A stretch of DNA of 64,000 nucleotides, taken from the NCBI RefSeq assembly GCF_018130695.1, contig NZ_JAFCJX010000001.1, forward strand, positions 496,001 to 560,000, given 5' to 3'. A program made the translations under genes and the position numbers. Positions 23,604 to 45,589 of the stretch are shown piece after piece (position 1 is the stretch's first letter; every line of letters starts with the position of its first letter). The notes beneath the pieces were generated by a model. The model saw nothing but the letters and a program-made list of their open reading frames with translations. It searched no databases and had not been told where the DNA came from. Source of the DNA: Bradyrhizobium jicamae (GTDB lineage: Bacteria > Pseudomonadota > Alphaproteobacteria > Rhizobiales > Xanthobacteraceae).

Positions 23604-24854
23604 ATGTTGAAAGGCAGTGTGGGATTGATCGCGCTGGGCAGCCTGTTGCTTTCAGGCACGGCGTTCGCGCAGGAGAAGATCAAGGTCGGCGTCACCGCGA
23701 CCCTGGAAGGCACCTACACGGTGCTCGGCGAGGACGGCATGCGCGGCCACCAGACCGCACTCAACGTGCTCGGCAAGAAGATCGGCGACAAGGAGCTGGA
23801 ATTCGTCGTGGCCTCGACGGATGCGACGCCGGATTCCGCGGTGCGCGCGGTGCGCAAGCTGATCGAGCAGGACAAGGTGCAGATCCTGCTGTCGCCGCTG
23901 TCCGGCGACGAAGGCATCGCGGTGAAGAACTTTGCCAAGACCCATCCCGAACTGACGTTCATCAACGCCGCGTCGGGCGCGCAGGAAACCACCTATGTCG
24001 ACCCTGCCCCGAACTTCTTCCGCTACAACATGGACGGCGCGCAGTGGCAGGTCGGCCTCGGCAAATACGCCTATGAGACCAAGAAGTATCGCAAGATCGC
24101 GACCGTCGGCGAAGACTACTCCTTCATCTACACCCAGGTGTTCGGCCTGGTGCTGGAGTTCTGCGGCGCGGGCGGCCAGGTCACAAACCGGCAATGGGTG
24201 CCGCTCGGCACCAAGGATTTTGCCTCGGTCATCGCGGCCCTGCCCGACGATGTCGATGCGATCTATCTAGGCTTAGGCGGCGCGGACGCCGTCAACTTCC
24301 TCAACCAGTATCAGCAGGCCGGCGGCAAGGCGCATCTGATGGGCGGTTCCATCATGATCGACCAGACCATCCTGTCCTCAAAGGGCAACGCCAAGAACGC
24401 GCTGATCGGCACCATCGCTGCCAGCGGCCAGGCCGACACCTGGGAGGATCCGGGTTGGCAGAAGTTTGTGAAGGCCTATCAGGACGCGTTCCCGCCGGCC
24501 AAGCGCTTCCCGAGCCCGTCGCTGCTTGCGACCAATTATTACGACTCGACCATGGCGCTGATCCTGGCGCTGCGGCAGGTCAACGGCGATCTCTCCAATA
24601 ACCAGGCCAAGTTCAGGGAAGCGCTGGCGAAAATCGAGCTCGACGCGCCGAACGGCAAGATCAAGCTCGACTCCAACCGGCAGGCGATCGGCACCAATTT
24701 CGTCACCGAAGTGGTCGATGACGGCAAGGGCGCGCTGTTCTCGAAGGTCGTGAAGGTGATCCCGAACGTCAACCAGACGCTCGGCTACGATCCGGCGGTG
24801 TTTTCCAAGATCGGCCTGCCGAGCCGGACGGTTCCGGAGTGCAAGAAATACTGA
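23604..24854 (+). CDS. branched-chain amino-acid/amide-type ABC substrate-binding protein
   Basis: 416-residue type-1 periplasmic binding protein. Signal peptide of about 22 residues (LLLSGTAFA). The mature part starts EKIKVGVTATLEGTYTVLGEDGMRG, typical of the LivJ/amide-binding group. The ATG at 23604 follows AGGGAGGAG; longer upstream frames run into repeat DNA. It ends with a Cys near the C-terminus (VPECKKY). First gene of the 22-kb plus-strand unit. The ligand is unknown; the linked molybdenum hydroxylase suggests an aromatic or heterocyclic acid or amide. Confidence 0.93.
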   Translation: MLKGSVGLIALGSLLLSGTAFAQEKIKVGVTATLEGTYTVLGEDGMRGHQTALNVLGKKIGDKELEFVVASTDATPDSAVRAVRKLIEQDKVQILLSPLSGDEGIAVKNFAKTHPELTFINAASGAQETTYVDPAPNFFRYNMDGAQWQVGLGKYAYETKKYRKIATVGEDYSFIYTQVFGLVLEFCGAGGQVTNRQWVPLGTKDFASVIAALPDDVDAIYLGLGGADAVNFLNQYQQAGGKAHLMGGSIMIDQTILSSKGNAKNALIGTIAASGQADTWEDPGWQKFVKAYQDAFPPAKRFPSPSLLATNYYDSTMALILALRQVNGDLSNNQAKFREALAKIELDAPNGKIKLDSNRQAIGTNFVTEVVDDGKGALFSKVVKVIPNVNQTLGYDPAVFSKIGLPSRTVPECKKY

Positions 24855-24883
24855 CGTATTTTTCGCAGGTGCGAGCCAACCCG

Positions 24884-24912
24884 TTGCAAGGGCGAAATTG
24901 CCGCCCTTGCAA
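24884..24912 (+). promoter_or_regulatory. intercistronic stem-loop after the binding-protein gene
   Basis: Perfect 11-bp inverted repeat TTGCAAGGGCG (24884-24894) with its complement (24902-24912) and a 7-base loop, no U-run. It sits between the binding protein and the AraC gene, like the hairpin at 1894-1928 in the sugar operon. Probable mRNA stabiliser or attenuator. Confidence 0.6.
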
Positions 24913-24971
24913 TCTCCGCGCGGATGTTGAACGCTGTTGAAAAGACAAGAACATCCCGCGGGAGGGAGGGC

Positions 24972-25799
24972 ATGAGCAAGGCGCTTGCCGTCTTCCACGG
25001 CCGGTTCGGCCGCGCAACGGTCTATCAGTTGAACCGCCCCTTCAACGTGCATGCGCATCGCGAAGGGCATCTGATCTTTCATGTCGGCGGCACACCGGCG
25101 CAGATCGACGTCTCCGAGCAGCGCTGGCTGCTGAGCGAAGACTCCGTTGTCGCGGTCAACCCGTGGGAGCCACACAATTTTCTCCCCACCGACATGGACC
25201 ATGGCGCGATCTTTTTCGTGCTCTATGTCAACGCCGAATGGTTCGCTCCCGAAAACGCGACGGCGCAAAGCCTGCGCTTCGGGCGCACCCACTTCAAGCG
25301 CACCGAGGCGCTGGAGAAACACATCCGCCGCACCGCGGCATTGGTGTGCGGCGCACCGTCGCTGCGCAGCCTCGATTGCGAGCTGCGGCAGCTGATCGAC
25401 AGCTGCTATGAGCAGAGCTGGCAGCAATCGGAGGCCGCGCTCGAGGCGCGCGCGATTGCCGCGATCACCGATTTCCGGGTCCGCAAGTCGATCAAGCTGA
25501 TGTCGGAAAGCCCCGGCGCCGAGATCGAGCTGGATTCGATTGCCCGCGAGTCCGGGCTGTCGCGGCCGCATTTCTATCGGCTGTTCCGGACGCAAACCGG
25601 CGTCACGCCGCACCTCTACATGAACACGCTGATCATGGAGCAGGCGCTCGATGCGCTGGTCGCGACCGAAGCGCCGATCGCCGACATCAGCGTCGATCTC
25701 GGCTTCACCTCGCAGAGCGGCTTCACCCGTTTCTTCGCCGCCAATGTCGGCATGGCCCCGACCGATTACCGCCGCGCCGCCAAGGTGTTGCGGCCGTGA
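24972..25799 (+). CDS. AraC-family transcriptional regulator
   Basis: 275 residues: an N-terminal cupin-like ligand domain (HAHREGHLIFHVGG, VNPWEPHNF) and two C-terminal helix-turn-helix units (SIARESGLSRPHFYRLFRTQTG and ISVDLGFTSQSGFTRFFAANVG, residues about 200-265). The ATG at 24972 follows GGGAGGGAGGGC. Placement between the binding protein and the permeases is unusual and suggests auto-linked activation of the same operon in response to the transported compound or a metabolite. Confidence 0.92.
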   Translation: MSKALAVFHGRFGRATVYQLNRPFNVHAHREGHLIFHVGGTPAQIDVSEQRWLLSEDSVVAVNPWEPHNFLPTDMDHGAIFFVLYVNAEWFAPENATAQSLRFGRTHFKRTEALEKHIRRTAALVCGAPSLRSLDCELRQLIDSCYEQSWQQSEAALEARAIAAITDFRVRKSIKLMSESPGAEIELDSIARESGLSRPHFYRLFRTQTGVTPHLYMNTLIMEQALDALVATEAPIADISVDLGFTSQSGFTRFFAANVGMAPTDYRRAAKVLRP

Positions 25800-25917: not shown

Positions 25918-26928
25918 ATGGCCAGGTTCATCGAACGCCATCCGGCCTGGGCGCTGATCGCGATCGTCGCGATCGCGGTGTTGCTGTGGCTGGTGTTTGC
26001 GATCTGGCCGCCGGGGCTGGAGCAGGCGATCGGCCGCAAGCGAGTGTTCCTCAATGCCGTGTTCAACGGCATCACGCTCGGCGGGCTGTATTTCCTGGTC
26101 GCCAGCGGCTTCACGCTGATCTTCGGGTTGATGCGCAACGTCAACCTGGCGCACGGCTCGCTCTATCTGTTCGGCGGCTATATCGGCTACGCCATCAGCA
26201 CCTGGACCGGCTCGTGGCTCTTGAGCTTTATCGTCGCCTTCATCGGCGTGGCGCTCGTCGGCGTGATCCTGCAGATCGTGGTGTTCCGCCGGATGGAGGG
26301 CCAGGATCTGCGCCAGACCATGGTGACGATCGGCCTGTCGATCGTGTTCGCGGATCTGATGCTCTGGGTGTTCGGCGGCGACTTTTACCAGATCCAGACC
26401 CCGGCCTGGCTGATCGGCCCGATCCAGCTGCCGCTGGTCACCGCGATCAAATCGTCGGGCGAGCCGGTGTATCTGGGATACCCACTGGTGCGGCTGGTGA
26501 TTTTCGCAGCTTCCGTCGTGATCGGCATCGCGATGTGGCTGGCGCTGAACCGGACGCGGGTCGGCATGATCGTGCGCGCCGGCGTCGATGATCGCGACAT
26601 CCTCGCAGCGACCGGCGTGCGCATCCAGCTGGTGTTCGTGCTGGTGTTCGCGCTCGGCGCGGGCCTGGCCGGAATCGCGGGCGTGGTCGGCGGCACCTTC
26701 CAGTCGCTGTCGCCGGGCGAGGATACAAGATTCCTGCTGGCGTCATTGGTGGTCGTGATCGTCGGCGGCATGGGCTCGATCCCGGGCGCTGCGCTCGGCG
26801 CCATCATCATCGGCCTCGCCGAGCAGCTCGGCTCGGTCTACATCCCGACCTACGCCATCGTCGTCACCTTCCTGATCATGGTGCTGGTGCTGGCGCTCCG
26901 CCCGCAGGGCCTGCTCGCGAGGCGATGA
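25918..26928 (+). CDS. branched-chain-type ABC permease (LivH)
   Basis: 336 residues. Eight or so membrane spans; LivH landmarks NGITLGGLYFLVASGFTLIFG and MRNVNLAHGSLYLFGGY, and later GLAGIAGVVGG and VVVIVGGMGSIPGAALGA. The ATG at 25918 is chosen (GGGAGG 12 bases upstream); an ATG at 25888 would add ten polar residues. It stops one base before the livM start. Confidence 0.92.
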   Translation: MARFIERHPAWALIAIVAIAVLLWLVFAIWPPGLEQAIGRKRVFLNAVFNGITLGGLYFLVASGFTLIFGLMRNVNLAHGSLYLFGGYIGYAISTWTGSWLLSFIVAFIGVALVGVILQIVVFRRMEGQDLRQTMVTIGLSIVFADLMLWVFGGDFYQIQTPAWLIGPIQLPLVTAIKSSGEPVYLGYPLVRLVIFAASVVIGIAMWLALNRTRVGMIVRAGVDDRDILAATGVRIQLVFVLVFALGAGLAGIAGVVGGTFQSLSPGEDTRFLLASLVVVIVGGMGSIPGAALGAIIIGLAEQLGSVYIPTYAIVVTFLIMVLVLALRPQGLLARR

Positions 26929-26929
26929 G

Positions 26930-28015
26930 ATGTCGTTGATGCAGGGCACCCAGCTACGCAGCACTCCGCCCACCTCGGCCGCCCGCCGCGCCTTCATCCG
27001 CGCCTGGCCGGAATTCGAGAACCCGGTCGCCTGGTTCGTGGCGCTGATCCTCGTCATCATGCCGCTGATCGCGAACGGATTCTTCCTGATCGAGATCTTC
27101 GGCACCACCCTGATCCTCGGCACCATCGCCCTCAGCCTGATGTTCCTCGCAGGCTACGGCGGCATGGTGAGCCTGATGCAGCTGACCATCGCCGGCTTCT
27201 CGGCCTACATGGTCGCCGTGTTCGGCGTCAGCGCCAACACCAATATCAGCCTCGGCTGGCCGTGGTGGCTGGCAACCCCGATGGCGCTGGCGCTGGCGAC
27301 CGCGTTCGGCACGCTTGGCGGCGCGCTCGCGGTGCGCACCGAAGGCATCTACACCATCATGATCACGCTGGCGATCGGCGCTGCCTTCTACTACTTCACC
27401 AACCAGAACTGGGCGATCTTCGGCGGCCACACCGGCATCAACACCGTCGCCACCCCGCATATCTGGGGCATCGACTGGCGCAACGACGTCGCGTTTTATT
27501 ACGTGGCGCTCGGCGTCGCCGCGATCTGCTACTTCGCGGTCCAGTACGTCTCGCGCGCGCCGTTCGGTCTCGCGCTGCAGGGCGTGCGCGACAATCCGCG
27601 CCGGATGGCCGCGCTCGGCTTCAACGTCAATGCGCATCGCGTCGCGGCCTACGCCTTCGCCTCCTTCATCGCCGCCCTCGGCGGCGTGCTGCAGGTCTGG
27701 AACTACCGGCAGATCTCGCCGGGCTCGGTCAGCGTCAACGCCTGCATCGACATCCTGATCATCGCGGTCGTCGGCGGGATCACGCGGCCGGTCGGCCCCT
27801 ATATCGGCGCCTTCGTGTTCGTGATCCTGCGCACTTTTGCGCTCGATCTGCTGGTCAAATTCGGCCTCGACGGCAACCGTTTTCGTCTCCTGATCGGGCT
27901 CGGCTTCCTCGCCATCGTGTTCTGGTCGTCCGACGGCATGATCGGCCTGTGGGAGCGCTGGCGCCGCCGCAACACCACTGCATCGCCGCGTACACGCAGA
28001 GGCGGCCATGGATAG
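26930..28015 (+). CDS. branched-chain-type ABC permease (LivM)
   Basis: 361 residues with a 45-residue hydrophilic N-terminus, then the LivM core: LSLMFLAGYGGMVSLMQLT, TEGIYTIMITLAIGAAFYY and GVRDNPRRMAALGFNV (cytoplasmic coupling loop). It forms the heteromeric channel with the LivH protein. The 3' end overlaps livG by 8 bases. The Arg-rich tail (RTRRGGHG) comes from that overlap. Confidence 0.92.
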   Translation: MSLMQGTQLRSTPPTSAARRAFIRAWPEFENPVAWFVALILVIMPLIANGFFLIEIFGTTLILGTIALSLMFLAGYGGMVSLMQLTIAGFSAYMVAVFGVSANTNISLGWPWWLATPMALALATAFGTLGGALAVRTEGIYTIMITLAIGAAFYYFTNQNWAIFGGHTGINTVATPHIWGIDWRNDVAFYYVALGVAAICYFAVQYVSRAPFGLALQGVRDNPRRMAALGFNVNAHRVAAYAFASFIAALGGVLQVWNYRQISPGSVSVNACIDILIIAVVGGITRPVGPYIGAFVFVILRTFALDLLVKFGLDGNRFRLLIGLGFLAIVFWSSDGMIGLWERWRRRNTTASPRTRRGGHG

Positions 28016-28790
28016 CGTCGCGCAGCGTCTCTCCGCAGTCGGCGCCGGCGCAGCTTTGGAGCTACGCGGGGTGACGCGGCTGTTCGGCGCGCTCGCAGCG
28101 CTGACCGACATCACCATCACGGTGCGGCCGGGCGAACGGCGCGCGGTGCTCGGCTCCAACGGCGCCGGCAAGACCACGCTGTTCAACTGCATCACCGGCG
28201 ACTTCCCGCCCTCCTCCGGCACGATCCGATTCTTCGGCGAGGACATCACCCACTTTCCACCTTACGAGCGGATCCGCCGCGGCCTGCGCCGCACCTACCA
28301 GATTTCGGCACTGTTCCCCGGCCTCACCGTGCATGACAACGTTTACCTCGCCTGCCGCGGCGTCTCGCGCGGACGCTTCTCGTTCCTGCGGCCGGGACAG
28401 AACGACGCGCTGATGCACGCCACCGAAACGCTGGTGCAGGCGGTGCATCTCACATCGGTGAAGGACCAGCGCGTCGCCGAGCTCGCCCATGGCCAGCAGC
28501 GCCAGCTCGAGATCGCGCTTGCGCTCGCCGGTGCGCCGCGATTCATCCTGTTCGACGAGCCCGCCGCAGGCCTGTCGCCGACCGAGCGGCGCGAGCTGAT
28601 CGAGATCCTGACTTCGCTGCCGGCGCATATCGGCTACATCATTATCGAGCACGACATGGACGTCGCGCTGCGCGTCGTCGAGAGCGTGACGATGATGCAC
28701 AACGGCCGCATCTTCAAGGAAGGCTTGCCGCGCGACATCGAGTCCGATCCCGAGGTGCAGGAACTTTATCTCGGAGGCGGCCATGGCTGA
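28008..28790 (+). CDS. ABC transporter ATP-binding protein (LivG)
   Basis: 260 residues. Walker A GSNGAGKTT (about 49-57), a degenerate signature LAHGQQRQLEIALALA in place of LSGGQ, which is usual for LivG, and Walker B FILFDEPAAGLSP. It energises LivH/LivM together with the LivF domain of the next protein. It overlaps both neighbours by 8 bases, so expression is coupled. Confidence 0.93.
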   Translation: MDSVAQRLSAVGAGAALELRGVTRLFGALAALTDITITVRPGERRAVLGSNGAGKTTLFNCITGDFPPSSGTIRFFGEDITHFPPYERIRRGLRRTYQISALFPGLTVHDNVYLACRGVSRGRFSFLRPGQNDALMHATETLVQAVHLTSVKDQRVAELAHGQQRQLEIALALAGAPRFILFDEPAAGLSPTERRELIEILTSLPAHIGYIIIEHDMDVALRVVESVTMMHNGRIFKEGLPRDIESDPEVQELYLGGGHG

Positions 28791-30993
28791 CCGCCGCAGC
28801 GCGCCCGCCCTCGAGGTGAAAGGCCTCGACGTCTATTATGGCCATTCGCACGCGCTGCAGGGCGTCGACCTCACGCTCGATAGCGGCGTGTTCTCGGTGG
28901 TCGGCCGCAATGGCATGGGCAAGACCACGCTGTGCAAGACCATCATGGGCCTGGTCCGCGCCAGCGGCGGCTCGGTGCGGATCCGCGGCGAGGACGTCAC
29001 GCAGCAGAGCCCGGCCCGCATCGCGCGACTTGGCGTCGGCTATGTGCCGCAAGGCCGCCGCCTGTGGCGCTCGCTCACCGTCGACGAACACCTCGCGCTC
29101 GCCGCCGGGCTGCGGCGCGGTCCCTGGACCGTCGAGCGCGTCTACGACACGTTTCCGCGCCTTGCCGAACGCAAGGGCCATGGCGGCAGCCAGCTCTCCG
29201 GCGGCGAGCAGCAGATGCTGGCCATCTCGCGCGCGCTGCTGACCAATCCGCAGCTGCTGATCATGGACGAGCCGACCGAGGGTCTCGCGCCCGTCATCGT
29301 CGCCCAGGTCGAGGAGATGCTGGTCCGGCTCGGCGACGACGGCGACATGTCGGTGCTGGTGATCGAGCAGAACATCGGCGTCGCCACTGCGATCTCGCGC
29401 AACGTCGCGATCATGGTCAACGGCCGGATCAACCGCATCATCGATTCCGCGCGGCTATCCGCCGACCGCGATCTGCAGCAACGCCTCCTCGGCGTCGGCA
29501 TGCATGGCGATCTCGATGCCGATGTTGAGGCCGGCCCGGCAAAGGCGACGTCCGACGCCGCGCCTCAGCCCGCGCGCAAGGGACCGGTCCGCATCTATGT
29601 CTCCAATCCCGTGCTGCCGACACGCTGGTCACAACCGGTGCCAATCGCGCGCATCGAAGCCGCTGCCCGCACGCAATCGGCGGGCGTGACGCGGCTCGAA
29701 GAGGCCCCGCGGGCACGGCGCGAGCAGGCCGTGACACAAACGTCCGGGCCACCGGTCGTGCTGGTCGTCGGCACGCTCGACACCAAAGGCGCAGAACTGC
29801 GCTACATCCGCGACATCATTGTCGAGAGCGGCCTGCGCGCCCGTCTCGTCGACGTCTCCACCAGCGGCAAGGCTGCGACCTGCGACGTCACGGCGCAGGA
29901 GATCGCACTCAATCACGGCCGTGGCGGCTCCGGCGTATTTGGTTCCGACCGCGGTGCATCGGTGGCTGCGATGGCTGACGCATTCGAGCGATGGCTGCGG
30001 CGCCAGGGCAATGTCGCCGGGATCATCTCGGCAGGCGGCTCAGGCGGCGCCTCGCTGGTTGCGCCCGCCATGCGCGCCCTTCCCGTCGGCGTGCCCAAGA
30101 TCATCATCTCCTCCGTTGCCTCGGGCGATATCGGCCCTTACGTCGGCCCGGCCGACATCATGATGATGTATTCGGTCACCGACGTGCAGGGCCTCAACTC
30201 GATCTCCCGCGCGGTGCTCGCCAACGGTGCGAACGCGCTGGCTGGCATGATCAAGGCACGGCTTGACGAGCGCGCGACCAGGCAACGCGAGGCGGCGAGC
30301 AACCTGCCCGCGATCGGCATCACCATGTTCGGCGTGACGACGCCGGCGGTGCAGAAGATCGCCGCTGAGCTGCGCGAAGATGTCGAGTGCCTGGTGTTCC
30401 ACGCCACCGGCGTCGGCGGACGCTCGATGGAGAAGCTGGTGGATTCCGGCCAGCTTGCCGGCGTCATCGACCTCACCACGACAGAGGTCTGCGACCTCCT
30501 GATGGGCGGCGTGTTTCCGGCGACCGATGATCGCTTCGGCGCAGTCGTTCGCAGCCGCGTGCCCTATGTCGGGTCGGTCGGCGCGCTCGACATGGTGAAC
30601 TTCGGCGCGCCCGACACCATCCCCGAGCGCTATCGCAACCGAAAATTCCACGTCCACAATCCGCAGGTCACGTTGATGCGGACCACGCCGGAGGAGAACG
30701 AGCGGATCGGCCGCTGGATCGGCGAAAAGCTGAACCAGATGGACGGGCCGGTGCGATTTGTCCTGCCCGAAGGTGGCGTCTCCGCGCTCGATGCGCCCGG
30801 CCAGCCGTTCTGGGATCCGGATGCCGACGCCGCGCTGTTCCGTTCGCTGGAGCACACGGTGCGCGCGACCAGCAACCGCCAGATCATTCGCGTCAAGCGC
30901 AACATCAACGATCCCGAGTTCACCGCCGCCATCGTCAGCGCGTTCCGTCCCCTGCTCGGACGCGCCGGCGGACGGCGGAGAGTGGCGAGGTGA
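28783..30993 (+). CDS. LivF ATPase fused to UPF0261/Tm-1-like ATP-binding domain
   Basis: 736 residues in two parts. Residues 1-240 are a complete LivF ATPase: Walker A GRNGMGKTT (41-49), signature LSGGEQQ and Walker B LLIMDEPTEGLAP. A linker of about 80 residues follows. Residues about 323-730 are a UPF0261/Tm-1-like domain, opening VVLVVGTLDTKGAELRYIRD, with GGSGGASLVAPAMRALPVG, ATGVGGRSMEKLVDSGQLAGV and a late LPEGGVSALD. In most genomes these are separate proteins. The next gene encodes the TIM-barrel partner that plant Tm-1 carries in the same chain. No frameshift is visible at the junction. The biochemical role of UPF0261 here is unknown. Confidence 0.92.
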   Translation: MADRRSAPALEVKGLDVYYGHSHALQGVDLTLDSGVFSVVGRNGMGKTTLCKTIMGLVRASGGSVRIRGEDVTQQSPARIARLGVGYVPQGRRLWRSLTVDEHLALAAGLRRGPWTVERVYDTFPRLAERKGHGGSQLSGGEQQMLAISRALLTNPQLLIMDEPTEGLAPVIVAQVEEMLVRLGDDGDMSVLVIEQNIGVATAISRNVAIMVNGRINRIIDSARLSADRDLQQRLLGVGMHGDLDADVEAGPAKATSDAAPQPARKGPVRIYVSNPVLPTRWSQPVPIARIEAAARTQSAGVTRLEEAPRARREQAVTQTSGPPVVLVVGTLDTKGAELRYIRDIIVESGLRARLVDVSTSGKAATCDVTAQEIALNHGRGGSGVFGSDRGASVAAMADAFERWLRRQGNVAGIISAGGSGGASLVAPAMRALPVGVPKIIISSVASGDIGPYVGPADIMMMYSVTDVQGLNSISRAVLANGANALAGMIKARLDERATRQREAASNLPAIGITMFGVTTPAVQKIAAELREDVECLVFHATGVGGRSMEKLVDSGQLAGVIDLTTTEVCDLLMGGVFPATDDRFGAVVRSRVPYVGSVGALDMVNFGAPDTIPERYRNRKFHVHNPQVTLMRTTPEENERIGRWIGEKLNQMDGPVRFVLPEGGVSALDAPGQPFWDPDADAALFRSLEHTVRATSNRQIIRVKRNINDPEFTAAIVSAFRPLLGRAGGRRRVAR

Positions 30994-30996: not shown

Positions 30997-31830
30997 ATGC
31001 CCAGGTTTGAACGCGCGGTGTTGTTGAAGAAGTTTCGCGACATGGTCGCGCGTGGCGAGCCGATCGTCGGCGGCGGCGCCGGCACCGGGCTGTCGGCGAA
31101 ATGCGAAGAGGCCGGCGGCGTCGATCTGATCGTGATCTACAATTCCGGCCGCTACCGCATGGCCGGCCGCGGCTCGCTCGCAGGCCTGATGCCCTATGGC
31201 GATGCCAATGCGATCGTGGTCGAGATGGCCGGCGAAGTGCTGCCGGTCGTGACCAAAACGCCCGTGCTCGCCGGCGTCAACGGCACCGATCCGTTCCGCG
31301 ACATGGACGTGTTCCTCGATCAGCTCAAGGCACTCGGCTTCGCCGGCGTGCAGAACTTTCCGACCGTCGGCCTGATCGACGGCACCTTCCGCGCCAATCT
31401 CGAAGAGACCGGCATGTCCTATGCGCTGGAGATCGACATGATCGCGCGTGCCCATGACAAGGACATGCTGACGACGCCTTACGTGTTCAGCGAACAGGAG
31501 GCCGCCGCGATGGCGATCGCCGGCGCCGACATCATCGTCTGCCATATGGGCCTGACCACAGGCGGCACGATCGGCGCGCAGACCGCGCCCAAGCTCGCTG
31601 ACTGCCCTGCCCGCATCGAGGCCTGGGCGGACGCGGCGCTCAGCATCAATCCGAACATCCTGGTGCTCGCGCATGGCGGTCCGATCGCGGACCCCGCGGA
31701 TGCCGATTTCATCATGAAGAAAACGCGCAACTGCCACGGCTTCTACGGCGCCTCCTCGATGGAGCGCCTGCCAGTGGAGCGTGCGCTGACGGATCAGGTT
31801 CGCAAATTCAAGGCGATCGGCGCGCGTTAG
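30997..31830 (+). CDS. TIM-barrel protein of the Tm-1 C-terminal/PEP-hydrolase-like family
   Basis: 277 residues, starting 3 bases after the fusion gene. Landmarks: [22 protein letters not shown] at the N-terminus, [21 protein letters not shown], a central [13 protein letters not shown] and [14 protein letters not shown] followed by [13 protein letters not shown]. These mark the phosphoenolpyruvate-hydrolase-like TIM barrel (PF09370) that forms the C-terminal half of plant Tm-1. UPF0261 and this barrel commonly co-occur in bacteria, so the two products probably act together. The reaction is not known. Confidence 0.88.
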
Positions 31831-36486: not shown

Positions 36487-36966
36487 ATGGCCAAGACCGC
36501 GCTTCAATTCCGACACAACGGCCGCGACGTCGCGATCTTCGTCGACGGCGGCACCAATCTGCTGGTCGCGCTGCGCGAGCTGATCGGCGACATGACGCCG
36601 AAATTCGGCTGCGGCCAGGGTGGCTGCGGCGCCTGCAGCGTGCTGGTCGACGGCGAGTTGCATCTGTCCTGCCTGACCTTGGCCGAGACGGTCGCCGGCC
36701 GCTCGGTCGAGACGCTCGACGGCATCAAGGACGGCCCCAACCTGCATCCCCTGCAACGCGCCTTCGCCGACAATTTCGCCGCCCAGTGTGGCTATTGCAC
36801 CCCGGGCATGCTGATGGCCGCCAAGGCGCTGCTCGACCGCAATCCATCGCCGAGCCGTGACGAGGTCGTCGAAGCGATCTCGGGCAACATCTGCCGCTGC
36901 ACCGGTTACGAACCCATCATCAACGCCGTGCTCGCAGCCGCCTCCGGCGGCCGAGCGCGGGCGTAA
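36487..36966 (+). CDS. molybdenum hydroxylase 2Fe-2S subunit (CoxS/XdhC type)
   Basis: 159 residues, standard length. Plant-ferredoxin-type cluster ligands CGQGGCGAC (Cys42, 47, 50) and Cys62; second cluster CGYCTPG (near 101 and 104) and CRCTGY (near 136 and 138). All eight cysteines are present. The ATG at 36487 follows the FAD-subunit stop by 7 bases. Confidence 0.95.
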   Translation: MAKTALQFRHNGRDVAIFVDGGTNLLVALRELIGDMTPKFGCGQGGCGACSVLVDGELHLSCLTLAETVAGRSVETLDGIKDGPNLHPLQRAFADNFAAQCGYCTPGMLMAAKALLDRNPSPSRDEVVEAISGNICRCTGYEPIINAVLAAASGGRARA

Positions 36967-38564: not shown

Positions 38565-39587
38565 ATGACCCGGCATCGCGGACGCGGCATCGCGTCGATC
38601 AACTATCCCATCGGCATGAATCTCGGCGGCGATCCGAGCCAGGCGCTGGTGCATTCGAACCCAAGCGGCAAGTTCACGGTTGCGCTGTCGTCGATCGATC
38701 TCGGCCAGGGCATGAAGTCGGTGACGCGGCAGATCTGCGCGGAGACGCTCGGCGTCCCCGTCGAGGATGTCTATGTCGACACCGCCGATTCCGATACCGG
38801 CCCGCACTGCATGGGCTCGTTCGCCTCGCGCGGCACGCATCGTGTCGGCAACGCCGTGATGGCGGCGGCCCGCGAGGCACGTGGTGTGATGATGGAGGCT
38901 GCCGCCGAGGAGTTGGAAGTCAATGCCGCCGATCTCGAAACCGACGGCCGCGGCAACATCCATGTCAAGGGCGCGCCGCACCGATCAATTTCAACCAAGG
39001 ACGTCGCGATCGCCGCCCAGTTCAAGCAGGGCAAGACCATCTCCGGCCGCGGCATCTTCCTGGTGCCGCTGTCCAACGTCGATCCTGAGACCGGCGAGAT
39101 GTCGCCGGCGACGTGCTATGCGCATGCCTGCATGGTCGCCGAGGTCGAGGTCGACGACGAGACCGGCGAGGTTGCGATGGTGCGGATGGACTCGGCCTAC
39201 GAGCTCGGCCGCGCGCTCAACCCGCGGCTGGTCGAGCAGCAACTGGTCGGCGGCGCCTGGATGGGCGTCAGCCACGCGCTGTACGAGACGCCCGAGCCTT
39301 ATTATCCGGATCCCTCGCACGGGCCGCGCGACTTCGTCGAATATTTGATGCCCGGCCCGGGCGACATCTGCCCACACGACATCGCGGTGCTGGAGCGCCC
39401 TGCTCCGGATGGCCCGTTCGGCGCCAAGGGTCCGGGCGAGATGTGCGCCAATCCGGTGCTGCCGGCGGTCGCGAATGCGATCTTCAACGCCGTCGGCGTG
39501 CGCATCGACGATCTGCCGATCACGCCGGAAAAGGTGCTGCGCGCGATCAAGGCGCAGGGCGGCGCGCGGCCGCAGGCGCGGCGCTGA
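38565..39587 (+). CDS. molybdenum hydroxylase catalytic subunit, C-terminal half
   Basis: 340 residues. It begins with a plausible continuation of the large subunit (RGRGIASINYPIG) and holds the second molybdopterin-binding half: LGQGMKSV (GQG at 47-49), GSFASRGTHRVGNAVM and the C-terminal GAKGPGEM with the catalytic Glu near residue 292. The active site would therefore be assembled from two polypeptides. With the N-terminal half it totals 868 residues, against about 770-800 for single-chain relatives; the excess is the Pro-rich tail. Confidence 0.9.
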   Translation: MTRHRGRGIASINYPIGMNLGGDPSQALVHSNPSGKFTVALSSIDLGQGMKSVTRQICAETLGVPVEDVYVDTADSDTGPHCMGSFASRGTHRVGNAVMAAAREARGVMMEAAAEELEVNAADLETDGRGNIHVKGAPHRSISTKDVAIAAQFKQGKTISGRGIFLVPLSNVDPETGEMSPATCYAHACMVAEVEVDDETGEVAMVRMDSAYELGRALNPRLVEQQLVGGAWMGVSHALYETPEPYYPDPSHGPRDFVEYLMPGPGDICPHDIAVLERPAPDGPFGAKGPGEMCANPVLPAVANAIFNAVGVRIDDLPITPEKVLRAIKAQGGARPQARR

Positions 39588-39594
39588 GGTCGAC

Positions 39595-40476
39595 ATGCCG
39601 GTCCGCAGCAACATCGTCGGCATCGACAGCCCGGAGGCGCTGGAGAAGGCGCTGCGTGCGGCCTATTACCTCGCCGACGACAGCATCGCCACCGCCTCCT
39701 ATCTCTCGCTCGCACTCGGCAAGCCGCTGCTGCTGGAGGGCGCGCCCGGCGTCGGCAAGACCGAGGCTGCAAAGGCGATCGCCGCCGTGCTCGGCCGCAA
39801 GCTGATCCGCCTGCAATGCTACGAAGGCATCGATGCGTCCGCCGCGCTCTACGAGTGGAACTATCCGCGCCAGATGCTCGCAATCCGGCAAGCCGGCGAG
39901 GAAACCATCGACATCTACGGCGAGTCATTTTTGATCGAGCGTCCGATGCTCGCGGCATTGCGCGCGCCTGATGCCACCGTGCTGCTGATCGACGAAATCG
40001 ACCGCGCCGACCAGGAGTTCGAGGCTTTCCTGCTCGAATTTCTCTCCGACTTCCAGATCTCGATCCCCGAGCGCGGCACGATCCGCGCGGCCGAGCATCC
40101 GGTGGTGGTGCTGACCTCGAACCGGACGCGCGATTTGCACGAGGCGCTGCGGCGGCGCTGCGTCTACCACTGGATCGACTATCCGACCGCCGATCGCGAA
40201 GCACGCATCGTGATGATGCGGGCCTCCAGCGTCGCCGAGGCCACCGCGCGCGCGGTCGTCGCGGCCGTTGGCCGGCTCCGCCGTGAACCGCTGAGCAAGG
40301 CGCCCGGCATCGCCGAGGCCGTCGACTGGGCGGAGGCCGCCACCCTGCTCTACAACGGCGGCGCGCGCTGGCCGGATGCGTTCAAGCGCTCGATCGGTGT
40401 CGCGCTGAAGGACGAGGAGGACCTGCACTACATCTCGCCGCGGCTCGACGCCATCATTGCGGAGGCAGCCGCGTGA
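39595..40476 (+). CDS. MoxR-type AAA ATPase (CoxD-like)
   Basis: 293 residues. Walker A GAPGVGKT (about 46-53), Walker B LLIDEIDRAD (about 126), sensor LTSNRTRDLHEALRRRC. MoxR ATPases paired with VWA proteins mature metallo-enzymes; CoxD does so for the active site of CO dehydrogenase. It overlaps the VWA gene (GTGA). Likely role: maturation of the split hydroxylase encoded just upstream. Confidence 0.92.
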   Translation: MPVRSNIVGIDSPEALEKALRAAYYLADDSIATASYLSLALGKPLLLEGAPGVGKTEAAKAIAAVLGRKLIRLQCYEGIDASAALYEWNYPRQMLAIRQAGEETIDIYGESFLIERPMLAALRAPDATVLLIDEIDRADQEFEAFLLEFLSDFQISIPERGTIRAAEHPVVVLTSNRTRDLHEALRRRCVYHWIDYPTADREARIVMMRASSVAEATARAVVAAVGRLRREPLSKAPGIAEAVDWAEAATLLYNGGARWPDAFKRSIGVALKDEEDLHYISPRLDAIIAEAAA

Positions 40477-41594
40477 GCGACGATCCGAAGCTGCCGCGCG
40501 CGGCGCAAATTTTCGTCACCTTCGTCGCGCTGCTGCGCGCCAACGGCTTTTCGGTCGCGCCGGAGCAGACGACCTCGTTCCTGGCCGCGGTCGAACTGCT
40601 CGGCCCGCGCAGCATGGAGCACATCCGACAGGCCGGGCTCGCCACGCTGGCGCCGCCGCCGGAGCGGCGCGCCACCTACGATCGGCTGTTCGACCTCCAT
40701 TTCCGCGGTAGCGAAGCGATCGAGTACGGCGAGGGTGAGGATGACGAGGTCGTCCGCCTGCAGGAGGAAGGCCGTGGCGACGGCGAGCCGCCGCTCGCCG
40801 ACGAGACCAATGAATCCGGCCTCGCCGCCGCCCGCGCGGAAGCCCTGGTCGAGCGCCGCTTCGCCCAGCCATCCACCAGCGATGCGTTGCGGCGTCTCGC
40901 GCGCGAAGCGCCGACCCGATTGCCGCGGCGGCGCGGTCACCGGCGGCGGCGCGCGCGGCGTGGCCCGTTCGCCGATCTGCGCCGGACTCTGCGCGAGAGC
41001 GTGCGCAATGACGGCGAAGTGCTGAAGCTCGGACGGCTCCGCCGGCGCCAGCGCCCGCGAAAAATGCTGCTGCTGATCGACGTCTCTGGCTCGATGAAGG
41101 CGCGCACCGAGGAGAACATGAAGCTCGCGCATGCGCTGGCGCAGGCGGCGGGCAGTGTCGAGATCTTCACCTTCGGCACCCGCCTGACCCGGATCACCCG
41201 GCCGATGCGGCTGAAGCGGCGCGAGCAGGCGCTGAACGCGGCCGCCTTCATCGTCAGCGATTGGGATGGCGGCACGAGGATCGGTGATGCGCTGCAGGCC
41301 TTCCTCGCCGTGCCCCGGTTCGGCGGTTACGCGCGCGGCGCGGCCGTCGTGATCGTCTCCGACGGGCTGGAGCGCGGCGATCCCGCAGCGCTGCGCGATG
41401 CCGTGGCAAAACTGTCGCGGCGGGCGTGGCGCGTGAGCTGGCTGACGCCGCTCGCCACCACGCCCGGCTTCAAGCCGCAGACCGAGGCGCTGGTCGCGAT
41501 CCAACGCTTCGTCGATGACATCGTGGACGGCGGATCGAGCGCGGCCGTGGTCGCGCACCTGCTGTCGCTCGGAAGACTCAGGAGAGCTGCGTGA
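40473..41594 (+). CDS. VWA-domain protein (CoxE-like)
   Basis: 373 residues from GTG at 40473. An N-terminal helical region, a highly basic patch (PRRRGHRRRRARRG, about 150) and a C-terminal VWA domain with MIDAS motif LLIDVSGSMKART, then GGTRIGDALQ and VVIVSDGLERGD. CoxE-family partner of MoxR ATPases. Stop and next start overlap (GTGA), so the genes are translationally coupled. Confidence 0.92.
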   Translation: MSDDPKLPRAAQIFVTFVALLRANGFSVAPEQTTSFLAAVELLGPRSMEHIRQAGLATLAPPPERRATYDRLFDLHFRGSEAIEYGEGEDDEVVRLQEEGRGDGEPPLADETNESGLAAARAEALVERRFAQPSTSDALRRLAREAPTRLPRRRGHRRRRARRGPFADLRRTLRESVRNDGEVLKLGRLRRRQRPRKMLLLIDVSGSMKARTEENMKLAHALAQAAGSVEIFTFGTRLTRITRPMRLKRREQALNAAAFIVSDWDGGTRIGDALQAFLAVPRFGGYARGAAVVIVSDGLERGDPAALRDAVAKLSRRAWRVSWLTPLATTPGFKPQTEALVAIQRFVDDIVDGGSSAAVVAHLLSLGRLRRAA

Positions 41595-42481
41595 CTGACA
41601 TCGTCGACGGACATCATCACATCTGGCGTCAGGCCGATCTCGCCTGGCTGTCCGGCCCGATGCAGCCGCGCATCTTCGGCCCCTATGAGCCGATCCGCCG
41701 TGACTATCCGATCGAAGAGTATCTCGACGACCTCAAGGGCACCGGCGTCACCCGCTCGGTCTATGTCCAGACCAACTGGCCGAACGACAGGTTCGAGGAC
41801 GAGGCGGCCTGGGTGCAGCACACCGCCGACAAGCACGGCTGGCCCCACGCGATCGTCGCTTACGCTGATTTCAGCGTTGACGATGTCCGTCCGCAGCTCG
41901 ACCGCCTCAAGCGCTATCCGCTGATGCGCGGCGTGCGGATGCAGCTGCACTGGCACGAGAACCCGCTCTATCGCTTCGCCGCCCGTCCCGACCTGTGCAC
42001 CGATCCGAAGATCAAACGCAACGTCGCCCGCCTCGCCGACTACGGCTGGAGCTTTGACCTGCAGGTGTTCGCGCCGCAGATGGCCGACGCGGCGGGCCTT
42101 GCCGAAGCCAGCCCTGATGTCACCTTCGTCCTGCAGCACGCTGGCATGCTCGAGGATCTGTCGCCGCAGGGCCGCTCAGCCTGGCGCACCGGCATGGCGC
42201 GGCTGGCGCAATGCCCGAACGTGGTCTCGAAGCTGTCGGGGCTCGGCACCTTCATCCATCGCAACGATGCCACGCATATCGGCGACATCATGTCAGACAC
42301 GGTGGCGATCTTCGGCGCCGAACGCTGCCTGTTCGGCTCCAACTTTCCGATCGAAAAGCTCTGGACCAGCTATCGCGATCTGATCGACGCCTTCCGTACC
42401 GCCGCCGCGCGGCTGACGCCGGAACAGCGCGAAGCGATTTTCAACAGGACCGCATCACGCGTCTATCGCCTCGGGACGTGA
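41591..42481 (+). CDS. amidohydrolase-2 family metal-dependent hydrolase
   Basis: 296 residues from a GTG overlapping the VWA stop. The metal-binding DGHHHIW lies at the N-terminus, and VRMQLHWHENP, FVLQHAGM and FGSNFPIEKLW are positions typical of TIM-barrel lactonases/decarboxylases of PF04909. Likely hydrolyses a lactone or ring-opened product of the pathway; the substrate is not readable. Confidence 0.9.
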   Translation: MTDIVDGHHHIWRQADLAWLSGPMQPRIFGPYEPIRRDYPIEEYLDDLKGTGVTRSVYVQTNWPNDRFEDEAAWVQHTADKHGWPHAIVAYADFSVDDVRPQLDRLKRYPLMRGVRMQLHWHENPLYRFAARPDLCTDPKIKRNVARLADYGWSFDLQVFAPQMADAAGLAEASPDVTFVLQHAGMLEDLSPQGRSAWRTGMARLAQCPNVVSKLSGLGTFIHRNDATHIGDIMSDTVAIFGAERCLFGSNFPIEKLWTSYRDLIDAFRTAAARLTPEQREAIFNRTASRVYRLGT

Positions 42482-42523: not shown

Positions 42524-43372
42524 ATGCCGCTGGAGATCAAGATCCTGGACTATGGCGATATCGAGCTGGAATCGAGCTTCCTGGTACTCGGGCGCGATTG
42601 CGGCCGCACCCGGCGTGTGCTGACGCTCGGCTTCCTGATCACCGGTGGCGCCTACCCGATCGTGATCGATACCGGCTACCGCTCGAACCAGATCATGGAG
42701 ACGCTCGGCATGCGCGGCCTCCAGTTCCACGAGAACATGATCGAGAACCAGCTGGCACGTCACGGCGTGCGGATGGGCGATGTCCGCTACGTCTGCCACA
42801 CCCATCTGCATATCGACCACGCCGGCAAGGACGACCTGTTCCCGATGAACACGACCGTCGTGCTCAACCGCAAAGAGCTGGAATATTCCGTCTCCGGCCT
42901 GATGCATCCGCAATATCCGGCACCCGACATCAAGCATCTAATCGACCGCCTGCACACCAAGAGCGCGTTGCGCTTCCTCGACCTGGAAATCACAGGCATG
43001 GTCGAGCTGATCCCCGGCGTCTATTGCGAGGCGGCGAATGCGCATACCGAAGGCTCGATGAACATCCACGTCCACACCGCCGACGGAATCGCGACGATCT
43101 GCGGCGACGTGATCTATGATTTCAACGACCAGATCGTGACGCCCTTCAACGAGATCCACGATTCCGAGCCGCGCACCACGGGCAATCACGGCACCAGCAA
43201 GCGCGCCGAGAAGGCCGCGATCAAGAAGCTGCTGTCGAGCTCGCGCTATCTGCTGCCGGTGCATGATCGCCCGGCCAAGATCGAGGGCGGCAATGTGGTG
43301 GGACGGTTGCACGACCAGGTGCCCGGCCCGGTCGTGCAGAGCCTGCCGCAGCGCAACTGGTTCCCGGCGTAA
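42524..43372 (+). CDS. metallo-beta-lactamase-fold hydrolase (AHL-lactonase-like)
   Basis: 282 residues. Zinc motif HTHLHIDHAG (about 92-101), with further ligands at AHTEGSM and CGDVIYDF. Similar overall to N-acyl-homoserine-lactonase-family proteins, but in a catabolic operon a pathway lactone is a likelier substrate than a quorum signal. The ATG at 42524 follows GGGAGGGATGAG. Confidence 0.88.
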   Translation: MPLEIKILDYGDIELESSFLVLGRDCGRTRRVLTLGFLITGGAYPIVIDTGYRSNQIMETLGMRGLQFHENMIENQLARHGVRMGDVRYVCHTHLHIDHAGKDDLFPMNTTVVLNRKELEYSVSGLMHPQYPAPDIKHLIDRLHTKSALRFLDLEITGMVELIPGVYCEAANAHTEGSMNIHVHTADGIATICGDVIYDFNDQIVTPFNEIHDSEPRTTGNHGTSKRAEKAAIKKLLSSSRYLLPVHDRPAKIEGGNVVGRLHDQVPGPVVQSLPQRNWFPA

Positions 43373-43386
43373 CGCGGGAGGCTCCG

Positions 43387-44955
43387 ATGACCCACGTCAC
43401 CCTGCGCAAGGAATTCGAAGACCTGATCGATCCCTACGCACCGGTCGGCCAGGTGGGGACGGGCTTCGACTTCACGGAGGGACCGATCTGGCATCCGCAG
43501 GATCACTTCCTGCTGTTCTCCGACATGCCCGGCGACGTGCGGCGGCGCTGGGATGCGCGGCGCGGCGTGGTCGAGGTCAAGCGTCCAGCGAATAAATGCA
43601 ACGGCTTGACGTATGATGCGGACCTCAATCTGATCGTCTGCGAGCATGCGACCTCCTCGCTGATTCGCGAGCGGCCGGACGGACGGCGTGAGGTCATCGC
43701 CTCGCATTACGAGAATCAGGAGCTCAACAGCCCAAACGACGTCTGCGTCCATTCCTCCGGCGCGATCTATTTCTCAGATCCCTGGTACGGCCGCATGCCG
43801 GTCTATGGCGTCGAGCGGCCGCGGCAGCTCGGCTTCCAGGGCGTCTATCGCGTGCCACCCGGCGGCGGCGCGCCGAAGCTCGTGGTCGATCGCCACATGT
43901 TCGAGCAGCCGAACGGGCTGTGCTTCTCGCCGGACGAGCGCATCCTCTATGTCAACGACACCGTGCAGACGCTGATCCGCGCCTTCGATGTCAGCGCCGA
44001 TGGCTCGCTGACCAATCCGCGCGTGTTCGCCTCAGGCATCACCTCCGAGCTGCAGGCCGGCGTCCCCGACGGCATGAAGTGCGACCAGCGCGGCAATGTC
44101 TGGGTCACCGCACCCGGCGGCGTCTGGGTCTATTCGCCCGCCGGCGACCTGCTCGGCAAGGTGCGGCTGCCCGAGCTCGTCGCCAACCTCACCTGGGGCG
44201 GACCCGATTTCCGTACGCTCTATCTCACCGCGACGCATTCGGTCTATGCGATCCCGACCAAGGTCGGGCCGCGTCACGAGCCCTATATGAGCGGCCGGCG
44301 CAGCAGCGGCGCCACCTCATCCGTGCCGGCGCCGAACCTGTCGGCCGGCGACATGCAGCTCGATCCGCAGCGCTGCGCGATGATCATCCAGGATCTGCAG
44401 AACGACGTCATCATGGATGGCGGGGCGTTCGCGGATTCCGGCGCGCCCGCGCATGCCAAGCAGCAGCGCGTCGTCGACAATGTGCGGCGGCTCGCCGAAG
44501 TCGCGCGCGCCCGCGGCGTCGCCATCATCCATGTCTGGTTCGTCGTCGAGGCCGGCGCGCCCGGCGTCACCTTGAACGCGCCGCTGTTCGAGGGTCTCGT
44601 CGACAGCAAGGCGATGGTCCGCGGCAGCTGGGGCGCGGCGCCGGTCTCGGGACTCGAGCCTCGCGCGGGTGATTTCATCGTCGAGAAGATGCGGATGAGC
44701 GCCTGGGAAGGCACGCGGCTGGAGACCATTTTGAAGGCCACCGGCCGCGACATGATCATCAACACCGGCGCCTGGACCAACATGTCGGTCGAGCACACCG
44801 CGCGCACCGGCGCCGACAAGGGCTATTTCATGATCGTGCCGGAGGACTGCTGCTCGACCATGAATGCAGACTGGCACAACGCCTCCGTCAACTTCGCGAT
44901 GCAGAACGTCGCCGTCGTCACCAACGCCGATACCGTGATCAAGGCGCTCGGGTGA
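43387..44955 (+). CDS. fusion of SMP-30/gluconolactonase and isochorismatase-like hydrolase
   Basis: 522 residues. Residues 1-300 form an SMP-30 beta-propeller with metal ligands FTEGPIW, NSPNDV and GVPDGM. After a linker (SGRRSSGATSS) residues 330-522 form a cysteine-hydrolase/isochorismatase-like domain: MIIQDLQNDV (Asp), VEKMRMSAWEGT (Lys). The nucleophile position, usually Cys in TN-x-CV-x-xTA, reads WTNMSVEHTA, with Ser. The first domain hydrolyses sugar-type lactones in known cases; the second normally cleaves amides. A two-step enzyme for a lactone/amide intermediate is inferred. Confidence 0.9.
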   Translation: MTHVTLRKEFEDLIDPYAPVGQVGTGFDFTEGPIWHPQDHFLLFSDMPGDVRRRWDARRGVVEVKRPANKCNGLTYDADLNLIVCEHATSSLIRERPDGRREVIASHYENQELNSPNDVCVHSSGAIYFSDPWYGRMPVYGVERPRQLGFQGVYRVPPGGGAPKLVVDRHMFEQPNGLCFSPDERILYVNDTVQTLIRAFDVSADGSLTNPRVFASGITSELQAGVPDGMKCDQRGNVWVTAPGGVWVYSPAGDLLGKVRLPELVANLTWGGPDFRTLYLTATHSVYAIPTKVGPRHEPYMSGRRSSGATSSVPAPNLSAGDMQLDPQRCAMIIQDLQNDVIMDGGAFADSGAPAHAKQQRVVDNVRRLAEVARARGVAIIHVWFVVEAGAPGVTLNAPLFEGLVDSKAMVRGSWGAAPVSGLEPRAGDFIVEKMRMSAWEGTRLETILKATGRDMIINTGAWTNMSVEHTARTGADKGYFMIVPEDCCSTMNADWHNASVNFAMQNVAVVTNADTVIKALG

Positions 44956-44962
44956 ACGGCAG

Positions 44963-45589
44963 ATGCCAAAGCTGTTCCACCTGAGCTGCTCGCCGCGGGC
45001 GGATTCGGAATCGGCCGCCGGCGCGCGCGTCTTCGTCGAACGCTTCGTGCAAGCGCATCAGGATTGGGACATCGACGCCATGAATCTCTGGCGCGATCCG
45101 CTGCCCGATTTCGAGGGTTATGTGCTGGAGGCCAAATACGCCCGGATCGGCGGCAAGCCCTTCACGCCGTCGCAGCGCGACGCCTTTTCGATGGTCGAGC
45201 GAATCGCGCTGCGGCTGTCGCTCGCCGATCGCGTGCTGATCTCGACACCGATGTGGAACTTCGGCATCCCCTACAAGCTGAAGCAGTGGATCGACGTCAT
45301 CACCCAGCCCGGGCTGACGTTCCGATACGATCCGGCGCAGGGTTATCTGCCGCTGCTGAAGGACCGGCCGACCGTCGTCATCATCGCCAGCGGCAGCGAT
45401 TTCGTCACGGGGATGAACCGCGGCCGCATCGACATGGCGACGCCTTACTTGCGCGAGGCTTTGCGCTTCATCGGCATCGGCAACGTCAGATTCGTGCCGA
45501 TCGGGCCGACGACGGGACCAGCCGATCCAATCCGCGTCGCCCGCGAGACGGCGCATCGCCGCCTCACCGAGATCGCCGCCAGCTTTTGA
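44963..45589 (+). CDS. FMN-dependent NADH-quinone/azo reductase (AzoR type)
   Basis: 208 residues of flavodoxin-like fold: LSCSPRADSESA phosphate-binding loop, STPMWNFGIPYKLKQWID (AzoR signature) and IASGSDF. These reduce quinones or azo compounds in the cytoplasm. Last gene of the plus-strand unit, 7 bases after the fusion gene and 6 bases short of a convergent gene. Confidence 0.92.
   Translation: MPKLFHLSCSPRADSESAAGARVFVERFVQAHQDWDIDAMNLWRDPLPDFEGYVLEAKYARIGGKPFTPSQRDAFSMVERIALRLSLADRVLISTPMWNFGIPYKLKQWIDVITQPGLTFRYDPAQGYLPLLKDRPTVVIIASGSDFVTGMNRGRIDMATPYLREALRFIGIGNVRFVPIGPTTGPADPIRVARETAHRRLTEIAASF

Follow-up and report, generated by a model that had tools for sequence, protein, structure and literature searches.

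Why should the genes for an ATP-binding cassette (ABC) importer, a Tm-1-like protein pair, a flotillin-like protein and a split molybdenum hydroxylase stand in a single row? The question is raised by a stretch of 64,000 nucleotides from Bradyrhizobium jicamae, referred to in its full length as the window, whose contig is part of a genome of 8.68 Mb. At positions 23604-45589 the window carries 20 genes, all in frame on the plus strand and with their named domains confirmed by Pfam profile search. The block is well supported as one co-inherited system; every part belongs to a known family, and the arrangement appears to be that of a catabolic import-oxidation cluster. The genes are as follows (E-values from Pfam unless stated otherwise).

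23604..24854, +, periplasmic solute-binding protein (Peripla_BP_6, 8.8e-49), in 73/73 Bradyrhizobium loci able to hold the gene
24972..25799 (start possibly 24924), +, AraC-family regulator (HTH_18, 3.5e-22), in 74/74 Bradyrhizobium loci
25918..26928 (start possibly 25888), +, importer permease 1 (BPD_transp_2, 2.8e-32)
26930..28015, +, importer permease 2 (BPD_transp_2, 8e-28)
28008..28790, +, importer ATPase 1 (ABC_tran, 5.2e-29; Walker A GSNGAGKT)
28783..30993, +, importer ATPase 2 fused to UPF0261 (Tm-1-like), 736 aa (ABC_tran, 2e-27; UPF0261, 9.5e-59; UPF0261_C, 4.7e-93)
30997..31830, +, PF09370 TIM-barrel partner (5e-131; PDB 2p10, E 2.1e-119)
31856..34753, +, SPFH/flotillin-like protein, 965 aa, hydrophobic N-terminus (Band_7, 2.5e-17; Flot, 1e-38)
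34763..35200, +, START1, SRPBCC domain (Polyketide_cyc2, 2.5e-29)
35203..35646, +, START2, SRPBCC domain (Polyketide_cyc2, 1.8e-16)
35661..36479, +, hydroxylase flavin adenine dinucleotide (FAD) subunit (FAD_binding_5, 5.5e-32)
36487..36966, +, hydroxylase [2Fe-2S] subunit, eight Cys for two clusters (Fer2_2, 1.1e-31; Cys pattern)
36977..38563, +, molybdopterin subunit part 1, hammerhead and MoCoBD_1 (MoCoBD_1, 1.4e-69; PDB 3hrd chain A, E 3.9e-60)
38565..39587, +, molybdopterin subunit part 2, MoCoBD_2 (1.2e-59; PDB 3hrd chain B, E 2.8e-47)
39595..40476, +, MoxR-type AAA ATPase, CoxD-like (AAA, 1.3e-13; Walker A and B)
40473..41594, +, VWA_CoxE protein with DVSGSM metal site (VWA_CoxE, 7.1e-49; motif)
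41591..42481, +, Amidohydro_2 hydrolase, L-fuconolactonase-like (2.3e-48)
42524..43372, +, metallo-beta-lactamase-fold protein, lactonase-like (HLHIDH motif)
43387..44955, +, SGL (gluconolactonase-like) fused to an isochorismatase domain in one protein (SGL, 2e-55; Isochorismatase, 3.1e-46)
44963..45589, +, Flavodoxin_2/azoreductase-like protein (9.2e-36)

Twenty plus-strand genes with gaps mostly under 20 bases and several overlaps had been described in the initial annotation of this DNA, and all of them were found again. Computed with the most plausible gene starts, the 17 gaps from the first permease gene to the last gene measured 1, -8, -8, 3, 25, 9, 2, 14, 7, 10, 1, 7, -4, -4, 42, 14 and 7 bases; 15 were under 20 bases and four were overlaps. 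The AraC gene is flanked by the two larger gaps of the block, of ~70-120 bases each depending on the starts chosen, and a scan of positions 23000-27000 for sigma-70 promoters found none. The modules of the row had likewise been named correctly, but it had gone unnoticed that ATPase 2 and UPF0261 are one protein and that the hydroxylase is exchangeable, and a kinase role of UPF0261 had not been raised.

Conservation and joint inheritance

Locus counts for Bradyrhizobium refer to the best 80 of 373 confirmed loci. Gene order was kept in all 80, for every gene fitting the fetched stretch, and each of the 65 loci whose length allows 18 genes or more (from the binding protein gene to that of the metallo-beta-lactamase) was complete; the block is not a chance arrangement. 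As read from the search table, the cluster-type SPFH protein occurs in 73 of 89 genomes of the genus. As far as the stretches reach, the same arrangement was observed in at least 11 other families, seven within the order (L127-L130, L132-L134) and four beyond it (L186-L189, L229). Two further copies are not counted in this number; one is carried by a Shinella plasmid (L210) and the other by a plasmid of Yoonia, a member of the Rhodobacterales (L211). Across all these loci, gene-by-gene identity was ~36-85%. The metallo-beta-lactamase gene was not seen in two divergent loci of the window's cluster version (variant A), namely L187 (genome G306) and the Shinella plasmid.

Three Bradyrhizobium genomes (G085, G012 and G075) hold a divergent copy, the SPFH protein of which is only ~63% identical. 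In trees of four gene sets (importer/SPFH, hydroxylase, START and hydrolase genes), these copies group with that of a genome of another family (G107), each time with a support of 1.0, and since the grouping is the same in all four trees, the divergent copy moved as a whole. Evolutionary distances were correlated among the four sets (r 0.78-0.88 for 17 sequences; 0 of 2000 permutations as high), although such correlations also carry the shared history of the species. One genome, G125, whose contig holds almost no hydrolase sequence, was left out of the trees; with it kept, the hydrolase set was uncorrelated with the rest (r -0.13 to 0.08), and r for the remaining pairs was 0.63-0.82. In some genomes the genes were called by a simple caller, which missed some genes detectable by tblastn. 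The claim that importer, Tm-1-like pair, SPFH, START proteins and hydroxylase form one system is thus borne out by the conserved order and the correlated distances.

At the 3' end the block is followed by genes for a convergent amidohydrolase and a LacI regulator. Ten more loci of the genus, read past the cluster (L217-L226), showed neither gene, and the boundary therefore looks real. The Flavodoxin_2 gene follows the SGL-isochorismatase gene in nine of these 10 loci and is absent from the tenth, which holds a foreign copy; it was not seen beside clusters outside the genus in the stretches that reach past the SGL-isochorismatase gene (L199-L201, L206, L208, L210). Flavodoxin_2 is hence a genus-level addition and not core, and the conserved block comprises 19 genes, at 23604-44955.

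The ATPase-UPF0261 fusion and the two cluster versions

The fusion of ATPase 2 with UPF0261 is a single open frame of at least 700 codons in all 78 Bradyrhizobium loci able to hold the gene (L115 and L118, the stretches of which begin behind or inside it, were left out), and a frame of more than 760 codons in 13 other class-level genomes. In the window, ATPase 2 has Walker A and LSGGE motifs, and both UPF0261 domains lie above the Pfam cut-off (198.7 and 310.9 bits versus 27). Among 337 class-level genomes searched with UPF0261 (E 1e-25), molybdopterin part 2 and SPFH (E 1e-70), UPF0261 was matched in 39, the own genome included, and 14 of these (own plus 13 others) carry the fused form. An SPFH gene lies within ~950 bases of the fused UPF0261 in all 14, and in none of the 25 genomes having only unfused copies was an SPFH match found beside UPF0261 at E 1e-70. 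Fisher's test of this association gave 6.6e-11, a guide value only, the genomes being related; two SPFH candidates per genome were scored, and a divergent neighbour could escape. SPFH was likewise not seen in 15 unfused UPF0261 loci that were read (L179-L185, L190-L193, L230-L233), some of them cut by contig ends. Molybdopterin part 2 was located within the cluster in the own genome and in four of the 13 other fused-form genomes. The initial annotation had named independent movement of the SPFH, Tm-1-like and hydroxylase blocks as the sign that would speak against one system, and the outcome is split: SPFH and the fused Tm-1-like domain stayed together in all 14 genomes of the class sample, but the hydroxylase block is swapped in another version of the cluster.

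In this other version, variant B (13 loci: L135, L170-L178, L212, L227 and L228), the split molybdenum block is replaced, and the ATPase-UPF0261 fusion, SPFH, START1 and the importer genes are kept within the stretch. START2 is fused to a medium-chain oxidoreductase (MDR) in 12 of 12 loci (L175 is cut by a contig end), on the basis of protein comparison in nine loci or of a single shared open frame in 11. The best NCBIfam model for the MDR partner in L172 was NADPH:quinone reductase, at 273.7 bits and below the cut-off of 348. The companion genes encode an FAA hydrolase, an alpha/beta hydrolase and an Amidohydro_1 protein, and all three are present in nine of the 13 loci; the FAA hydrolase was not seen in L171 or L178 (the latter reaches a contig end), L176 shows only Amidohydro_1, at its edge, and L175 is cut. 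In L172 the alpha/beta hydrolase is nearest to 3-oxoadipate enol-lactonase models, below their cut-off. PF09370 was found in 11 of the 13 loci, an AraC match in none, and no locus read holds both the split hydroxylase and the START2-MDR fusion.

In terms of phylogeny, the fused UPF0261 domains form one group (support 0.71), and under midpoint rooting the molybdenum version is a derived clade, with support of 0.90 for UPF0261, 0.96 for SPFH, 0.95 for START2 and 0.68 for PF09370. The SPFH grouping of variants A and B received a support of only 0.29, and in the PF09370 tree the two variants together are not one group. The simplest reading would be that the fusion arose once and that the molybdenum module came in later, displacing an older oxidoreductase; the hydroxylase block is an exchangeable module. 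Two variant B loci show features of their own. In L178 an ordinary, unsplit molybdenum hydroxylase set (2760-6394, +) stands directly beside the cluster, which is on the other strand, and in L177 a cluster of rearranged order includes one protein with two START-type stretches (2616-3536, +).

The best PDB matches of the window UPF0261 were tomato Tm-1 (E 1.5e-100) and then 9mpy (E 2.3e-54, ~28% identity), the title of which names Saro_1862, a UPF0261 domain protein of Novosphingobium aromaticivorans, with bound acetovanillone. The structural model of the window domain is weak (predicted local distance difference test, pLDDT, 58.3) and was used only to retrieve its family; compared with 9mpy (Z 21.4, root-mean-square deviation (rmsd) 11.6, 335 residues aligned), the fold spans the whole domain. 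Fourteen unfused UPF0261 proteins share 33 invariant residues, 24 of which occur in every one of the 29 fused proteins, and the fused domain therefore looks functional.

UPF0261 genes also occur in other settings. A second UPF0261 of the own genome, on contig 34 (L203), is slightly nearer to 9mpy (E 4.3e-49) than to Tm-1 (1.4e-43); it adjoins a gene for a HAD-family hydrolase and lies near genes for a copper amine oxidase and an amidase, and the same locus includes importer, aminotransferase and aldehyde dehydrogenase genes. According to their annotation, the symbiosis plasmid of Sinorhizobium fredii NGR234 (L213) and pMLa of Mesorhizobium japonicum (L214) carry UPF0261 and PF09370 with cupin, Gfo/Idh/MocA and sigma-54 regulator genes. 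Elsewhere in the window, at 48033-54114 and separate from the cluster, genes for a TRAP transporter, a glyoxalase-like protein, a RuBisCO-like protein and an SBD_N/NBD_C kinase stand in a row that resembles a sugar-acid pathway.

A proposed pathway and its alternatives

Building on the gene content, order, fusions, co-occurrence and intact motifs described above, we propose, at a probability of roughly 45%, one inherited catabolic system at the inner membrane, in which import would be followed by phosphorylation at UPF0261, by oxidation on an enzyme docked through START2 and SPFH, and by lactone opening. The substrate would enter via the Liv-type importer, at the exit of which the UPF0261 domain would phosphorylate its hydroxyl or enol, by analogy with the UPF0261 protein of Novosphingobium (presumably MarK). 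The PF09370 protein would act on the phosphorylated product or sense it. The oxidoreductase would dock at the membrane through START2 onto an SPFH assembly, where it would be oxidised, with quinone as a possible acceptor, and the lactone hydrolases would open its product. The fusions of ATPase with UPF0261, of START2 with MDR and, in plants, of UPF0261 with the TIM domain link these steps to one another. Kinase activity, docking on a scaffold, electron route and substrate are what we infer here, and the likeliest substrate would be a cyclic, lactone-forming compound, possibly aromatic.

As for the oxidation step, the features of the xanthine oxidase family are all present, i.e., an FAD subunit, a subunit with eight cysteines for two [2Fe-2S] clusters and the molybdopterin domains. 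The molybdopterin halves carry the loops AMRGFG (part 1) and GAKGPGE (part 2), as in hydroxylases; we take these to be the RGF/YG loop and the GAKGxGE motif with its catalytic Glu. The best PDB match of both halves was nicotinate dehydrogenase (3hrd, chains A and B), over most of each chain. No hint of a substrate came from the genes around the closest split hydroxylases that stand alone (L194-L196). Downstream, the best NCBIfam models were L-fucono-1,5-lactonase for the Amidohydro_2 protein and N-acyl-homoserine lactone (AHL) lactonase for the metallo-beta-lactamase-fold protein, both far below their cut-offs. Amide hydrolysis, which the initial annotation had included among the steps, is unlikely for the isochorismatase domain, since Ser replaces Cys at what we take to be the nucleophilic position of isochorismatase-fold Cys hydrolases, both in the window protein and in all 17 orthologues read. 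Uptake, then oxidation, then hydrolysis would be the natural reading of such a gene set. According to the available part of PMC4240915, sulfuration of the molybdenum site of CO dehydrogenase requires CoxD, and a subsequent copper step requires CoxE; by analogy, the MoxR and VWA genes may serve a similar maturation of the molybdenum site here.

The proposed platform, the SPFH protein, combines an SPFH domain, a C-terminal Flot domain and an N-terminal hydrophobic segment with coil repeats that have a period of 44 residues (four times eleven). Among the orthologues read, those of divergent variant A loci have 872-1165 residues, and those of variant B loci have 564-738. The AlphaFold model of START2 (fair confidence, pLDDT 84.7) has an SRPBCC fold and is nearest to 7tmu, an uncharacterised SRPBCC protein (Z 20.8, rmsd 1.6, 141 residues aligned); the structural matches listed are mostly plant abscisic acid (ABA) receptors, and the shared fold shows no function.

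Several findings weigh against the proposed system. The window UPF0261 is nearer to Tm-1 than to 9mpy and may thus lack the kinase activity; MarK and Saro_1862 are only presumed to be one protein, the tie of UPF0261 to a kinase coming from the title of 9mpy and the citation of MarK; and at nine of the 33 family-invariant positions at least one fused protein differs. A biotin carboxylase was found on the same contig as the more distant UPF0261 in none of 14 genomes, several of which are fragmented. Genes for sugar importers, cupin and Gfo/Idh/MocA proteins are further neighbours of unfused UPF0261, which implies a wide range of substrates. In L227 and L228, PF09370 is missing beside the cluster and present elsewhere in each genome. 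The platform role of the SPFH protein is deduced from co-occurrence, and SPFH relatives (42-57% identity) occur without the fused UPF0261 in 19 further genomes of the 337, making SPFH the more widespread partner. The 50 structural matches listed for the START2 model do not include CoxG, although CoxG is not thereby excluded.

The last two points touch on alternatives for the START and SPFH proteins. The START proteins could be quinone carriers of the CoxG type, with START2 handing membrane quinone to the hydroxylase or to the MDR, and SPFH organising no more than the membrane patch. The resemblance of the L172 MDR partner to NADPH:quinone reductase speaks for such a role, as do published accounts, as far as their available parts go: CoxG is described as quinone-binding (PMC13240472), and CoxG-like proteins are membrane anchors for glycerol-3-phosphate dehydrogenase, with a similar anchor proposal cited for 3-hydroxypyridine dehydrogenase (PMC11962113). 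The position of START2 beside a molybdenum enzyme, or fused to a quinone-reductase-like one, fits a quinone or anchor role. Yet START1 and START2 match Polyketide_cyc2 in Pfam and no COXG family, CoxG is missing from the structural matches listed, and START homologues occur without SPFH in smaller clusters of importer, unfused UPF0261 and PF09370 genes (L183-L185, L190 and L191; other neighbours partly identified), and we regard such a carrier role as improbable. To the same degree improbable is a role of SPFH in membrane protection, in which it would travel with importers of membrane-active compounds and serve as no scaffold. SPFH is a general family, with eight copies in the own genome, and the relatives without fused UPF0261 fit this explanation; its constant place beside the fused UPF0261 and the single SPFH group shared by variants A and B, weakly supported as that group is, do not.

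The Tm-1-like proteins, for their part, could form a sensing pair, in which the fused domain gates or reports uptake and PF09370 binds a ligand that controls expression or transport. In L183 (2459-4246, -), a sigma-54 activator carries PF09370 at its N-terminus (Pfam), which suggests that PF09370 is a ligand sensor; long PF09370 proteins are similarly placed beside variant B importers (L171, L204) and, by annotation, beside unfused UPF0261 (L215, L216), and the available part of PMC5028733 notes a suggested role of the domain in signal recognition. Against this stand the conserved family residues of the fused form and the acetovanillone bound by a UPF0261 protein, acetovanillone catabolism in Novosphingobium being described as starting with a single-component kinase, MarK. 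A sensing pair is unlikely in our estimation, slightly more so than either of the foregoing roles. Far less probable is that the genes have separate functions and spread together as a mobile or selfish cluster. The plasmid copies in Shinella and Yoonia, the transfer of a whole copy into three Bradyrhizobium genomes and the exchangeable oxidoreductase block would agree with such spread, but a nearly gapless, overlapping order is kept over many families, domain fusions join the steps, and the split hydroxylase and the START2-MDR fusion were never read in one locus.

A bolder form of the import-oxidation system is conceivable, and we hold it to be doubtful: an ABC importer with a built-in substrate kinase, phosphorylating its substrate during entry, would amount to group translocation outside the phosphotransferase system (PTS), on a flotillin-like chassis with START-docked exchangeable modules.

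Significance and comparison with known systems

If the proposed system is true, it would point to a function for the UPF0261/PF09370 pair, which occurs in bacteria, in fungi and widely among land plants (Tm-1), would link transport and activation in one protein, and would be a concrete example of a defined metabolic path served by a flotillin-type protein. The built-in kinase, if true, would be a larger step than the import-oxidation cluster. The scaffold idea can be put to the test on the two exchangeable versions, since one chassis would be expected to recruit two unrelated oxidoreductases through the same START2 domain. A literature search of partial coverage, with many subscription papers outside it, found no description of the cluster or of the ATPase-UPF0261 fusion.

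Among the molybdenum enzymes, nicotinate dehydrogenase NdhFSLM (3hrd) is likewise a four-gene enzyme with the large subunit split at the same domain boundary, whereas the hydroxylase of the window is accompanied by MoxR/VWA factors, START proteins, SPFH and a fused importer. The coxMSLDEFG cluster of carbon monoxide (CO) dehydrogenase has in common with the window the FAD, FeS and molybdenum subunits, the AAA ATPase, VWA_CoxE and SRPBCC-type proteins. In contrast, the loop of the window reads AMRGFG and is not the cysteine loop that we take to mark the active site of CoxL in form I CO dehydrogenase, and the START proteins are without a COXG match. Aerobic CO dehydrogenase was accordingly rejected as an identity on account of the loop without cysteine and of the missing CoxF-like gene; CoxD- and CoxE-like genes are present, and no CoxF-like (XdhC-type) match was recognised among the 20 genes. 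Compared with flotillins and YqiK-type SPFH proteins, the window protein shares the SPFH and Flot domains and the hydrophobic N-terminus, and differs in its coil of 44-residue repeats.

In terms of the Tm-1-like pair, the part of PMC5028733 available reports that TBST, the PF09370-type protein, pairs with UPF0261 in 491 of 504 bacterial genomes having TBST, and that in plants UPF0261 and the TIM domain are fused in one protein. Both domains are present and adjacent here as well, but UPF0261 is fused to an importer ATPase, and the term 'ABC' has no occurrence in the available text of that paper. MarK/Saro_1862 (9mpy; the two presumably one protein) has the same UPF0261 fold, at ~28% identity, and is a stand-alone single protein. 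Phosphorylation of a phenol as the first catabolic step is known for the aromatic dikinase HpeHI (PMC12167813, as far as available), which was considered as a UPF0261-TIM protein and rejected, being an ATP-grasp/swivel dikinase with a catalytic His, where the window has UPF0261 and PF09370 instead. Finally, the binding protein, two BPD_transp_2 permeases and two ATPases of the Liv-type branched-chain importers are all present in the window; here, however, the second ATPase carries UPF0261.

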